Shown: in pieces, positions 37,479-42,786 of the stretch
Position numbering within the stretch: the first letter of the stretch is position 1
How the letters are laid out: every line of letters starts with the position of its first letter
Made by a program: the position numbers and the translations under genes
Source: Acetobacter farinalis
GTDB lineage: Bacteria; Pseudomonadota; Alphaproteobacteria; Acetobacterales; Acetobacteraceae
Assembly: GCF_011516935.1 (NCBI RefSeq)
Contig: NZ_WOTF01000001.1
Coordinates: 372,001-436,000, forward strand
Direction: 5' to 3'
Length of the DNA stretch: 64,000 nucleotides
Notes under the pieces: model-generated
What the model was told of the DNA's origin: nothing
Databases searched by the model: none
The model's input: the letters and a program-made list of their open reading frames with translations, nothing else

Positions 37479-40400
37479 TCAGAACGATCCACTAAAATAT
37501 GACTGAAGCGGCGCAACTTCAAGCGGTCCTTCACGCATTGCCGCAATTGCATATGTTGCGGCCCGCGCCCCTGCCATTGTGGTGTAGTGCGGAATGCCCA
37601 GCACCAGCGCGGAACGGCGGATATCAAAGCTGTCCGCCACGGACTGTGCGCCACGGGCCGTGTTGATGACCATCTGCACTTCGCCCGAGCGGATGGCGTC
37701 CACACAATGCGGGCGGCCTTCCAGCACCTTGTTCACAACATCCACCTCAATCCCGGCATCGCGCAGCTTTTTGGCTGTGCCGCGTGTGGCCAGAATTTTC
37801 AGCCCCATGGCGGCAAGCTGCCGGCCCAGCGCCGGAAGCTGGGCCTTGTCACTCTCCCGCACGGAGAGGAAAACCGTGCCGGAGGTGGGCAGGCGCACGC
37901 CAGCGCCAAGCTGGGATTTGGCAAAGGCCCGCTCGAAGGAGGTGTCCAGCCCCATGACTTCACCCGTGGAGCGCATTTCCGGCCCCAGAATGATGTCCAC
38001 TTCCGCAAAGCGGTTGAAGGGGAACACGGCTTCCTTCACGGCTACATGCGGCACCACGGCGCGGTCATCCAGATTGAAGCTGCTCAGTCTGGCTCCGGCC
38101 ATCACACGTGCGCCAATCTTGGCCACCGGAACACCCGTGGCCTTCGCCACGAACGGCACGGTGCGGGATGCGCGCGGGTTGACCTCAAGGACAAAGATTT
38201 CCTGATCCTTGATGGCGTATTGCACGTTCATCAGCCCGACAATGCCCAGCTCACGCGCCATGGCTTCGGTCTGCGCCTTCAGCTCCGTCACAATGGCGGG
38301 GGAGAGGGTGTAGGGCGGCAGGGCGCAGGCGCTGTCACCAGAGTGAATGCCCGCTTCTTCAATGTGTTCCATCACACCGGCCACATAGACATCCGTGCCG
38401 TCTGCAATGCAGTCCACGTCCGCTTCAATGGCTTCGTTCAGGTAATGGTCAATCAGCACGGGGCCGGAGGCAATGTCATGCCCGGCAAGCTGAAGGGCGC
38501 CGCGCATATAGCGCTGGAGGCCCGCACGGTCATACACGATTTCCATGGCCCGGCCGCCCAGCACGTAGGACGGACGCACCACAACCGGGTAGCCGATGCG
38601 TTCCGCAATGTCCTCGGCTTCCGTCAGGGAGCGGGCAATGCCGTTGGCGGGCTGACGCAGGCCGAGCTTGTGCAGCAGGGCCTGAAAACGCTCGCGGTCT
38701 TCCGCGCAGTCAATGGCATCCGCCGGGGTGCCCAGCAGCGGGATGCCCGCTTTTTCCAGCGCGTGCGAGAGCTTGAGCGGAGTCTGGCCGCCATACTGCA
38801 CGATGCAGCCCTTGACGGTGCCGTTCTGCTGTTCCCGGCGGATCAGCGCGATGACATCCTCAGCCGTCAGCGGTTCGAAATACAGGCGGTCGGACGTATC
38901 ATAATCGGTCGAGACTGTTTCCGGGTTGCAGTTGACCATAATGGCCTCAAACCCGGCTTCACGCAGCGCATAGGCGGCGTGCACACAGCAATAGTCGAAT
39001 TCGATACCCTGACCGATCCGGTTCGGGCCACCGCCGAGAATAATGACCTTCTCGCGGTCTGTCGGCGCGGATTCACAGGCCGGAGGGGCAAACACCCCTT
39101 CGTAGGTGGAATACATATAGGGCGTGCTGGATGCGAATTCGCCCGCGCAGGTATCAATGCGCTTGTAGACGGCATTGACCCCGACCTGATCACGCAGGGC
39201 CGAGACCTCCTCCGCCTGAAGGCCGGAGAGCCGTGCAAGCTGGATGTCGGAAAAGCCCATGGCTTTCAGGCGGCGCAGGCCCTGTGCGTCCCGCGGCAGG
39301 CCGTGGGTTTCCACAGCGCGTTCGGCGTGCACGATTTTTTCAAGCTCGCGCAGGAACCACGGCTCAAAGCGGCAGGCTTCGTTGATGTCTTCCACGGAAA
39401 GGCCAGCACGCAGCGCCTGTGCGGCCATGAGGATGCGTTCCGGGCGCGGCTGGGAGAGTGCTGCGCGGAAGGCATCTTCCCCGCCATCACCCGGCACGTC
39501 CACCGGGTCCAGCCCATGCAGGCCGGTTTCCATGGAGCGTAGGCCCTTTTGCAGCGCTTCCGGGAAAGACCGGCCAATGGCCATGGCTTCGCCCACGGAT
39601 TTCATGGAGGTGGAGAGCAGGGCCGGAGCGCCGGGGAATTTTTCAAACGTGAAGCGCGGGATTTTGACAACCACATAGTCAATGGTCGGCTCGAACGAGG
39701 CCGGGGTGGAACCGGTAATGTCGTTCTTCAGTTCATCCAGCGTGTAGCCCACAGCCAGCTTGGCGGCGATCTTGGCAATGGGGAACCCGGTGGCCTTGGA
39801 GGCCAGTGCGGAAGAGCGGGAGACGCGGGGGTTCATTTCAATCACCACCATGCGTCCGTCAGCCGGGTTCACGCCGAACTGCACGTTCGATCCCCCGGTT
39901 TCCACGCCAATGGCGCGCAGGCACGCAATGGAGGCATCGCGCATCCGCTGGAATTCCTTGTCCGTCAGCGTCAGGGATGGCGCGACAGTAATGGAATCCC
40001 CGGTATGCACACCCATCGGGTCAATATTTTCGATGGAGCAGACGATGATGCAGTTGTCCGCGGTATCGCGCACAACTTCCATCTCATATTCTTTCCACCC
40101 GAGCAGGGATTCTTCAATCAGCACTTCCGTGGTGGGGGAAGCATCCAGCCCGGAGGCGACGATCTGCTCAAATTCTTCGCGGTTATAGGCAATACCGCCG
40201 CCGGACCCACCCATGGTGAAGGAGGGGCGAATAATGGTGGGGAAGCCGATTTTCTTGAACGCTTCCCGTGCCTCTTCCATGTTGTGGGCAATGAAGCTGC
40301 GCGGGCTTTCAATGCCGATGGCGTCCATGGCTTCACGGAATTTCTGGCGGTCTTCCGCGCGGTCAATCACATCGGCCTTCGCGCCGATCAGCTCCACACC

Positions 40401-40733
40401 ATGCTTTTGCAGGAAGCCGGAGGCATCCAGCGCCATGGCGGTGTTCAGCGCGGTCTGGCCGCCCATGGTGGGCAGGATGGCGTCCGGCTTTTCTTTGAGA
40501 ATAATGCGCTCAACGCATTCCGGCGTAATGGGCTCCACATAGGTGGCATCCGCAAGGCCGGGGTCCGTCATGATGGTGGCGGGGTTCGAGTTGACCAGAA
40601 TAACCCGGTAGCCTTCCTCCCGCAGGGCCTTGCAGGCCTGCGCGCCGGAATAGTCGAACTCACAGGCCTGCCCGATGACAATGGGACCAGCGCCAATAAT
40701 GAGGATGGAGCGGAGATCTGTCCGTTTCGGCAT
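37479..40733 (-). CDS. carB: Carbamoyl-phosphate synthase large subunit
   Basis: Synthetase subunit making carbamoyl phosphate from ammonia (delivered by CarA), bicarbonate and two ATP, feeding arginine and pyrimidine synthesis. From the ATG at 40733 it has 1084 residues, the usual length. The two homologous ATP-grasp halves are visible: [18 protein letters not shown] near the N-terminus and [18 protein letters not shown] near residue 560, with [18 protein letters not shown] and [18 protein letters not shown]. The C-terminal allosteric (MGS-like) domain covers about 940-1084 and includes [16 protein letters not shown]. coli uses it for UMP and ornithine control. Start MPKRTDL is preferred over an open extension upstream to 40766, as it is the family's standard N-terminus. 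It begins 7 bp after the carA stop. Confidence 0.97.
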
Positions 40734-40740
40734 GATGCGT

Positions 40741-42150
40741 TCAGTCCTTGCGTGCGTGCGCATCAATCAGCGCGACAAACCGTTCAAAGAGATAGAAACT
40801 GTCAGACGGGCCGGGGCTGGCTTCCGGGTGATACTGCACGGAGAAGGCCGGGAAACGGTCAGAGGCCAGACCTTCGTTAGAGCCATCAAACAGGCTGACA
40901 TGTGTAACGTGCGCATCCGCCGGAAGGCTTTGTGCATCCACCGCAAAGCCGTGATTCTGGCTGGTGATTTCCACGCGGCCCGTGGCCAGATCCTTCACCG
41001 GCTGGTTGGCGCCGCGGTGCCCGCGGGCGAGCTTGTAGGTCTTGCCACCCAGAGCAAGGGCCAGAAGCTGGTGGCCAAGGCAGATGCCAAACAGCGGCAG
41101 ACCGGCATTCAGCACGCCCTGAATGGCGGGAACGGCGTATTCCGCCGTGGCGGCCGGGTCTCCGGGGCCGTTGGAGAGAAAGACGCCGGCCGGGCCAAGA
41201 GCCAGAATTTCTTCCGCCGTGGTGGTGGCGGGCACAACAGTGACATCACAGCCCGCGGCCACCAGGCAGCGCAGGATGTTGCGCTTCGCACCGTAATCCA
41301 CCGCCACAACCTTGCGGCGGTTTTCCGGGGCGGGGCGGGTGCCTTTCGGCCATTCCCAGACGCTTTCGCTCCATGTGTAGGGCGCTTTGCAGGTCACGAC
41401 CTTTGCCAGATCCATGCCTTCCAGCCCCGGCCATGCGCGGGTGGCCTCCTGCAGGGCGGGCAGATCAAACTGCCCGTTTTCAGGGAAATACAGAGCCGCC
41501 GTCTGTGGGCCGTGGTCACGGATTTTCAGGGTGAGGGAGCGGGTATCAACCCCGGCAATCCCCGCAACGCCCTGCGTTTTCAGCCATGCGTCCAGACTTT
41601 CCGTGGCGCGCCAGTTGGCTGGTTCCGTCAGGTCTTCCTTGGTGACAAGGCCGAGAGCTGAAACGCGCTGTGCTTCATCATCTTCCGCGGTGGTGCCGAC
41701 ATTCCCGATATGCGGGAATGTGAAGGTAATGATCTGGCCAGCGAAGGACGGGTCCGTCAGTGTTTCCTGATAGCCTGTCATGCCGGTGGAAAAGCAGATT
41801 TCACCAAGGGCGGGCTTCTGCGTGAAGGCGCCAAAGCCTTTTCCCCACAGAATGGTTCCGTCTGCAAGGACAAGGGCGGCTGTTGCGCCGTCCGGGCGGG
41901 CGTCTGGCATGGGTATTCCTGTTTTGCTGCCTCCCGGCGCCGGGGAGGACTGATCTGGGGATGTGGGGCTTGCGGGGTCCAGGTCTGTCAGGGAAAGACC
42001 GGTGGCCCGTGCGATAACAGGCCAGTGGCGGGATGGAATGGCCTGAGCCTGCCGCCATTTGCGGATAGCTTCCGTGCCAACGCCGGTCAGGCGTGCTGTT
42101 GCATCCGGCCCGCCAAGTCGGGCAATGATGGTATCGATTGAAATGGGCAT
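40741..42150 (-). CDS. carA: Carbamoyl-phosphate synthase small subunit with N-terminal HTH domain
   Basis: Glutamine amidotransferase subunit of carbamoyl-phosphate synthase. The CarA part starts near residue 81 ([19 protein letters not shown]) and has the class I triad: Cys357 in GICLGHQLL, His441 and Glu443 in QYHPEAS. Ahead of it, residues 1-60 form a small helix-turn-helix domain of YdaS/Cro-like type ([40 protein letters not shown]), joined by a Ser/Pro-rich linker (about 60-80). No stop codon separates them, so translation from 42150 makes a 469-residue fusion. An internal ATG at 41910, with AGGA six bases upstream, could also give a normal 390-residue CarA. The fusion may be a DNA-binding autoregulator; paired palindromes lie just upstream. 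Confidence 0.93.
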
Positions 42151-42200
42151 GAGGTAAAACTGTGCCTCCCGTGCTGCATGATCTAGCAGCCTGCGGAGTG

Positions 42201-42265
42201 GGTGGGAAGAAATTTCCCACTCCGGTATGCCGGTTTTAATCCCCGGTGGGAAATTTCTTCCCACC
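42201..42265. promoter_or_regulatory. Paired palindromic operators between carA and yqeY
   Basis: GGTGGGAAGAAATTTCCCAC (42201-42220) and its exact reverse complement (42246-42265) form a 20-bp inverted repeat with a 25-bp spacer. Each arm is itself a near-palindrome, GTGGGAA-N5-TTCCCAC. The centres are 45 bp apart, close to four helical turns, so two dimers could sit on the same face. The site is 51-115 bp upstream of the HTH-CarA start and 66-130 bp before the divergent yqeY start. Confidence 0.7.
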
Positions 42266-42277
42266 TGATGATTTTAT

Positions 42278-42298
42278 GCCACGCCAGTGTGGCGTGGC
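42278..42298. other. Hairpin in the carA-yqeY gap
   Basis: Perfect 9-bp stem GCCACGCCA (42278-42286) / TGGCGTGGC (42290-42298) with a 3-nt loop. No T-run follows, so it is not a terminator; it may form in the 5' leader of yqeY or carA mRNA, or be part of the promoter region. Confidence 0.45.
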
Positions 42299-42330
42299 CT
42301 CTGATGCAGAGCAAGATGGAGTGAGTGATT

Positions 42331-42786
42331 ATGTCCCTGCGTGAGCGCCTGATGGCTGATCTCAAGACAGCAATGAAAGCCGGGGAAAGTGCGCGTGTGG
42401 GCACGATCCGCATGATTACGGCCAAACTCAAGGATGTTGAGATTGCAGGCCGCGCCAAGGGCAGTGAAGGGCTGAGCGAGGAGGAAGGGGTTTCCGCGCT
42501 GCGCGGAATGGTCAAGACCCGCGCCGAATCGGCCGCCCTGTATCGTGATGCCGGTCGTCCTGAACTGGCCGAGAAGGAAGAGGCGGAAATTGCCGTTATC
42601 CGTGGTTATCTGCCGCAGGAAATGGATGATGCCGCGCTGGACGCCGCGGTGAAGGACGCAGTCTCCGCCAGCGGTGCCACCTCCATGAAGGATATGGGCA
42701 AGGTGATGGCGGAACTGAAGGCGAAATTCGGGGCCGGGCTTGATATGGGCCGCGCCAACGCGGTGGTGAAGGCGCATCTGACCTGA
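42331..42786 (+). CDS. GatB/YqeY domain-containing protein
   Basis: A 151-residue helical protein of the YqeY family, related to the tRNA-binding tail of GatB. It has a high-Lys/Glu first half (LRERLMADLKTAMKAGESAR) and the family's IRGYLPQEMDD segment near residue 95. Function is not established; interaction with tRNA or amidotransferase complexes is inferred from the GatB similarity. It begins the alphaproteobacterial macromolecular synthesis cluster (yqeY-dnaG-rpoD). The ATG at 42331 is preceded by GGAGTGAG; a GTG two codons before is a lesser choice. It is divergent from carA, so both may be controlled from the palindrome region. Confidence 0.9.
   Translation: MSLRERLMADLKTAMKAGESARVGTIRMITAKLKDVEIAGRAKGSEGLSEEEGVSALRGMVKTRAESAALYRDAGRPELAEKEEAEIAVIRGYLPQEMDDAALDAAVKDAVSASGATSMKDMGKVMAELKAKFGAGLDMGRANAVVKAHLT

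Follow-up and report, generated by a model that had tools for sequence, protein, structure and literature searches.

A pair of palindromes upstream of carA in Acetobacter farinalis very probably serves as the operators of the protein encoded beside them, a carbamoyl-phosphate synthase small subunit (CarA) that carries its own N-terminal Cro-like helix–turn–helix (HTH) domain, and would place the carAB operon under autorepression. Autoregulation of this kind had been suggested in a preliminary description of the locus, and comparative sequence evidence now supports it strongly. The sites co-occur with the domain, their half-sites covary with HTH residue 34, they lie at carA and they appear to be built into its core promoter.

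The HTH–CarA fusion and its upstream palindromes

In the window (the whole 64,000-nt stretch of DNA analysed here), HTH-carA (40741–42150, minus strand) is an in-frame fusion of an N-terminal Cro-like HTH to the carbamoyl-phosphate synthase small subunit. The enzyme part is complete, scoring 446.2 bits against TIGR01368 (cut-off 307.35) and matching both PF00988 and PF00117, and its translation contains the stretches GICLGHQ and QYHPEA, which we take to hold the catalytic Cys and His of the glutaminase. Residues 5–58, counted from the ATG at 42150 (41977–42138, minus strand), match positions 1–54 of 54 of the carph-isopro model NF046037 at 67.6 bits (cut-off 38). The start of carA is most likely this ATG (42150–42148), rather than the upstream GTG given in the ORF list. 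Downstream lies a putative carB (37479–40766, minus strand), named by eye from its translation as the large subunit and presumably in one operon with carA; on the other side, yqeY (42331–42786, plus strand), which matches PF09424, is transcribed divergently.

AlphaFold2 models the window HTH with helices at residues 5–12, 15–22, 26–35 and 40–50 (mean pLDDT 85.8). The nearest solved fold is Xfaso 1 Cro (3bd1_A; Z 8.5, r.m.s.d. 2.7, 63 aligned residues), with the next entry at 7.1, and this structural match to solved Cro proteins identifies the domain as Cro-like. Foldseek placed Cro chains at ranks 1–8 (best E 0.021) and gave no match with E < 0.001 for this domain; the score against Pfam P22_Cro (PF14549), 20.6 bits, lies below the gathering cut-off of 30.2. 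By analogy with the Cro-like fold, the third helix (residues 26–35; 42046–42075, minus strand), which includes Q34 (codon 42049–42051), is taken as the recognition helix. The HTH is 100% identical in A. orleanensis, A. cerevisiae and A. malorum. Between species, changes at the third codon position dominate in six comparisons (for example 3, 1 and 22 changes at positions 1, 2 and 3); the domain is therefore translated and under protein-level selection. One carph-isopro match was reported in the genome of the window, on CarA, with 31 of 47 first-look candidates scored.

The palindromes lie, as had been described, in the gap between HTH-carA and yqeY, between the carA ATG at 42150 (minus strand) and the yqeY ATG at 42331 (plus strand). 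Two 20-nt arms (42201–42220 and 42246–42265), separated by 25 nt, are complementary at 20 of 20 positions, and each holds GTGGGAA-N5-TTCCCAC with 0 mismatches, forming perfect 19-bp palindromes at 42202–42220 and 42246–42264; here too the original account was accurate. Its centre-to-centre distance of 45 bp holds for the 20-nt arms and not for the palindromes, which are 44 bp apart. The inverted orientation that it stressed is of little consequence: a palindrome reads the same when inverted, so that orientation can reside only in the 5-nt spacers, and among 170 site pairs of relatives the two spacers complement each other exactly in 15. We refer to the putative proximal operator as O1 (42203–42219; 17 bp, TGGGAAGAAATTTCCCA; 19 bp including the outer G/C), which is conserved upstream of HTH-carA, and to its conserved twin, the putative distal operator, as O2 (42247–42263; 17 bp, TGGGAAATTTCTTCCCA); no strand is assigned to either.

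The exact 19-bp pattern is not frequent at random: it occurs at two places in the whole assembly (2,943,929 bases, 74 contigs), both in the carA–yqeY gap, and the reversed control pattern has 0 matches in the same assembly. With two copies in the genome, a dispersed repeat is ruled out. At three mismatches the window contains 4 pattern matches against 3.3 expected, so that the unusual thing is the exact pair. Genome-wide, TGGGAARNNNYTTCCCA with at most two mismatches is found at 44 places compared with 20 for its control. From the 42 weaker places we examined nine sites on eight stretches: seven overlap some ORF of at least 120 aa, those on L408 and L409 lie outside such ORFs, and one ORF-overlapping site (L405, position 1626) may sit between two genes of the other strand. 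None of these nine of 42, judged by eye, is at a pyrimidine or arginine gene. There may be a small wider regulon in this genome.

Co-occurrence and covariation of sites and domain

To describe the sites across relatives we used 185 unique HTH-carA loci, collected through genus, family and class searches and through fetches by place, with nine repeat loci of the same genomes removed beforehand; L182 and L199 were left out as having no usable HTH-CarA in the stretch, L303 as having no HTH, and alignment A1 was made without L049. Scanning the 200 bp before HTH codon 1 for the core GGAA-N5-TTCC revealed an exact core in 180 of the 185 loci and two exact cores in 113. With at most one mismatch allowed, every locus (185 of 185) has at least one site and 170 have at least two, as the search upstream of carA in relatives that had been proposed as a check now establishes. 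One clear site only was found in 15 loci, several of which have a degraded second site at 38–40 bp. By comparison, among 3,700 mononucleotide-shuffled upstream sequences an exact core appeared in 10, at least one site with at most one mismatch in 209 and two sites in 5. Although 27 of the 185 loci had originally been picked through the motif itself, the remaining 158 all have a site.

The longer form TGGGAA-N5-TTCCCA is present in 125 of 200 family genomes, against 13 of 200 for the reversed control, and the motif loci that were fetched are immediately upstream of HTH-carA in all cases but L056 (29 of 30). Genome G119 has 11 copies of this form; six that were compared belong to a repeated stretch with shared flanks, away from carA. 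Of 200 family genomes, 190 have a match to the carph-isopro domain on any protein, 188 of them above the cut-off, and the loci of this sample were fetched from among the matches listed, with at least G112 left out. With an S-type HTH as query, matches came from 373 of 397 genomes; this set is ranked by the S34 query, and its residue counts are no survey.

HTH-less carA genes served as controls. In 27 of them, with 660 nt of upstream sequence each (24 genes from other alphaproteobacterial families and the Acetobacteraceae loci L094, L098 and L099), no site pair at the usual spacing was found; another six loci of this kind were left out for their short upstream sequence (74 or 0 nt). The cores that did turn up are isolated or widely spaced: L243 has an exact core far upstream, L235 a lone core with one mismatch close to the gene, and L094 two such one-mismatch cores at a distance of 271 bp, of which one is close to carA. 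A class search of 385 genomes revealed no HTH-CarA outside the Acetobacteraceae: among the matches listed, those that reached residue 4 or lower came from the five family members, and L249, whose match row begins at residue 20, has no HTH by tblastn. Within the family, four genomes of 1.5–2.1 Mb have carA without the HTH (L094 in G039, L095 in G038, L098 in G077 and L099 in G163). In the three of these loci with enough upstream sequence (L094, L098 and L099) the operator pair is also absent, and G163 encodes a carph-isopro domain on a separate 82-aa frame elsewhere.

The sequence of the sites also follows that of the domain. Of all HTH columns, residue 34 accounts for the largest share of the variance at half-site base two (0.55, against 0.27 for the next column). 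Of the 216 promoters that remained after removal of 14 repeat loci, 183 belong to proteins with Q34 and 33 to proteins with another residue; an NGGGAA half-site occurs in 181 of the former and in 5 of the latter (S34, 1 of 24; T34, 3 of 5; A34, 0 of 2; H34, 1 of 2), giving a Fisher p of 8e-28 that ignores relatedness. Q34 goes with TGGGAA and S34 with NCGGAA, and half-site bases two to six in the Q34 class are 91, 99, 99, 100 and 94% identical. L080 and L299 are Q34 loci without an NGGGAA half, L085 is a Q34 locus with G at position 2 in one of four halves, and the five non-Q34 promoters that keep an NGGGAA half comprise three with T34, one with H34 and one with S34. On a tree built without L177 and L089 (short frames), parsimony gives five residue changes and six motif changes, with three independent pairs on supported branches. 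In 200 random pairings, each of only three pairs, the motif changed the same way in a mean of 1.6 of 3 and did not differ in 1.4, and one pairing contained an opposite change; with so few independent pairs, a tree-aware sign test is powerless. Judged from these alignments, the half-site covaries with residue 34 of the predicted recognition helix, on few independent switches.

Promoter geometry, site spacing and a putative internal start

The position of the operators points to a core-promoter function. In class A, which comprises 104 of the 185 loci, the 17-bp operator fills the interval from −35 to −10: the hexamer directly before the proximal 17-mer begins with TTG in 95 of 104, the second base of the following hexamer is A in 97, and the two features coincide in 90, compared with 0.4% elsewhere in these sequences. 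Agreement with TATAAT is modest (three or four of six in 87 of 104). This arrangement looks like a sigma-70-type promoter with the operator as its 17-bp spacer. Because the first in-frame ATG comes 12–13 nt past the operator in 94 of 104 loci, the start point would fall at or next to the ATG, which implies a leaderless message; class A promoters are thus probably leaderless.

Class B includes the window and numbers 56 loci. In 38 of them TGnTA follows the operator at a distance of exactly 14 nt, so that the operator half TTCCCA coincides with the −35; in 18 there is no TGnTA at this distance. TGnTA is invariant in an alignment of 25 Acetobacter promoters, which the named Gluconacetobacter and Komagataeibacter promoters resemble. 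The other 25 of the 185 promoters fit neither class. In the window, the putative extended −10 is TGCTAGATC (42180–42188, minus strand; −10 hexamer 42185–42180), with the TGnTA conserved in Acetobacter. The putative −35 hexamer TTCCCA (42203–42208, minus strand), assigned from its position, is the carA-side half of O1 and lies 17 bp before the −10. A simple consensus scan of 42000–42450 reported no sigma-70 promoter, and the class B promoter is therefore drawn from comparison. In both geometries the operator is inside the core promoter, which implies repression by blocking of RNA polymerase. A GGAGG at 42165–42169 (minus strand) lies 14 nt before the HTH-carA ATG, an unusual distance that recurs (13–14 nt) in the aligned Acetobacter promoters.

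Two further suggestions of the preliminary description are not supported. It had put the two operators on the same helix face. Among 170 pairs, 85 have a spacing of 38–39 bp (about 3.7 turns) and 28 a spacing of 44 bp (about 4.2 turns); in a set of 168 pairs, 67% fall at 37–40 bp and 20% at 43–44 bp, and the resultant for a 10.5-bp period is 0.44. The two modes differ by roughly half a helical turn, and the pairs do not keep to a single face. It had also raised control of the divergent yqeY–dnaG–rpoD genes. A yqeY match is present in 169 of the 185 fetched loci, and the 16 without one in the fetched stretch still have sites (two in 13, one in 3), which argues against such control as the purpose of the sites; the operators may have a side effect on the divergent yqeY promoter.

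The linker between HTH and CarA contains a putative internal start for an HTH-free CarA. In the window this is an ATG at 41908–41910 (minus strand; ACAGGAATACCC-ATG), with an AGGA Shine–Dalgarno-like element (41917–41920, minus strand) 6 nt before it, and it lies approximately where an HTH-less CarA would begin. We counted such starts in 153 of the 185 loci, leaving out 32 in which the CarA start motif was not found. A Shine–Dalgarno-like four-mer precedes 88 of 119 in-frame linker ATGs. The figures are 17 of 537 for ATGs in the CarA part, 454 of 4,103 for the remaining linker codons and 4 of 85 for linker ATGs out of frame; the commonest gap from four-mer to start is 6 nt (52 of 99). Counting ATG, GTG or TTG, 98 of the 153 loci have an internal start (88 in the ATG form) and 55 do not, so it is frequent but not universal. 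Going by these patterns, it is somewhat more probable that the internal start makes an HTH-free CarA product than that it does not. Given the poor distance between the GGAGG and the fusion start, the internal start may be the stronger of the two in the window.

Proposed autorepression, rival readings and known systems

Two features of an autoregulatory enzyme are found together here: a DNA-binding domain, by family and by fold, within the enzyme polypeptide, and a conserved operator at the enzyme's own gene, tied to that domain. In the mechanism that we propose, dimers of the N-terminal Cro-like HTH would bind each TGGGAA-N5-TTCCCA palindrome. Occupancy of O1 would exclude RNA polymerase, the operator being part of the core promoter, and the second site, mostly 38–44 bp upstream, would add cooperative binding. 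The carAB operon would in this way be repressed by its own product. Less firmly, HTH-free CarA made from the internal start might leave the repressor domain on part of the subunits only.

How such a repressor might be tuned is more speculative. In E. coli, ornithine, MgATP and potassium shift the enzyme from alpha-beta to (alpha-beta)4, and it remains essentially alpha-beta when UMP is present; oligomerization is reported not to affect how its activity is regulated (PMC6245113). An (alpha-beta)4 assembly with HTH-CarA could present up to four HTHs, enough for two palindromes. It nevertheless seems doubtful that effector-controlled assembly governs operator binding. Repression by (alpha-beta)4 is awkward in sign, because the activated form would then repress, and free HTH-CarA in excess over CarB would be an equally good signal. 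We regard as conceivable, although on balance unlikely, a self-sensing repressor with two carA products, in which translation from the internal start yields HTH-free CarA and a start that is leaderless or poorly spaced yields HTH-CarA. Effector-driven assembly would set the grip on the two operators and RNA polymerase would read the allosteric state directly, with no separate regulator.

Other readings of the sites have to be weighed against autorepression. They might be operators of a separately encoded arginine- or pyrimidine-responsive carAB regulator, with the CarA HTH having another target or none, much as separate proteins govern carAB of E. coli (PMC6245113). However, every one of the 185 HTH-carA loci has a site, and none of the 27 HTH-less upstream regions, those of the Acetobacteraceae L094, L098 and L099 included, shows a pair; the half-site changes with residue 34 of the CarA HTH itself, and the exact motif is nowhere else in the genome. 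We therefore give a separate regulator only a small chance. The chance is smaller again that HTH-CarA is an activator, or that it chiefly controls yqeY–dnaG–rpoD: yqeY adjoins divergently in the window and was matched in most loci (169 of 185), but the operator coincides with the spacer or the −35 of the promoter, and a protein bound there usually acts as a repressor, and the 16 loci without a yqeY match retain their sites.

An RNA element, in which the palindromes singly or both 20-nt arms would form a terminator or attenuator hairpin in the carA or yqeY transcript, would account for the full complementarity of the window arms and for a terminator-like hairpin at 42245–42265 (plus strand; 1 found, 0.4 expected). 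Yet it is sequence, not pairing alone, that is conserved (91–100% for bases two to six of the Q34 half-site), the spacers are exact complements in only those 15 of 170 pairs, and the class A operator, being between −35 and −10, is outside the carA mRNA; we consider this reading extremely improbable. No Rfam family reached its cut-off (two microRNA families were far below), and the geometry is contrary to an RNA element.

Autorepression by HTH-CarA is the reading that we carry forward. Carbamoyl phosphate lies at the fork between arginine and pyrimidine synthesis, and much of the acetic acid bacteria and their relatives seems to depend on one fusion protein and two operators. The system offers a compact example, open to direct testing, of an enzyme that would read its own promoter; Q34 and S34 are natural specificity variants for protein–DNA recognition, and the possible dual-start gene would set the ratio of regulator to enzyme. 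A literature search on carph-isopro, HTH-CarA and carA autoregulation found no report, which is weak evidence because subscription papers were thinly covered.

The CarA HTH is, like other carph-isopro proteins, a clear member of NF046037. In other alphaproteobacterial families the domain is on other proteins, unlike the CarA fusion, and at 29 such loci we saw neither a CarA match nor a TGGGA-type site. Of three such other-family proteins searched, two match mitofilin (Mic60) with the HTH in front, L104 over the Pfam cut-off and L117 under it; at L112 the HTH lies behind a HemD domain in one open frame. From their sequences, all three look like a DNA-binding fold on apparent membrane proteins.

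The closest solved folds are those of phage Cro proteins (Xfaso 1 Cro 3bd1, N15 Cro 6on0 and P22 Cro 1rzs), which bind small palindromic operators and repress promoters; unlike these, the HTH-CarA domain is fused to an enzyme and its P22_Cro score is below the cut-off. PutA, BirA and NadR are trigger enzymes, or enzymes with a DNA-binding domain of their own, and HTH-CarA is like them a metabolic enzyme polypeptide with such a domain that would control a gene of its own pathway. It differs from them in being a carbamoyl-phosphate synthase subunit, in its Cro-like domain, in the placement of its operator within the promoter and in a possible domain-free isoform. At E. coli carAB, too, metabolic enzymes take part in transcription control: the trigger enzymes PepA and UMP kinase PyrH act there with regular transcription factors (PMC6245113). 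Whereas those helpers are other enzymes, the DNA-binding domain here is on CarA itself.
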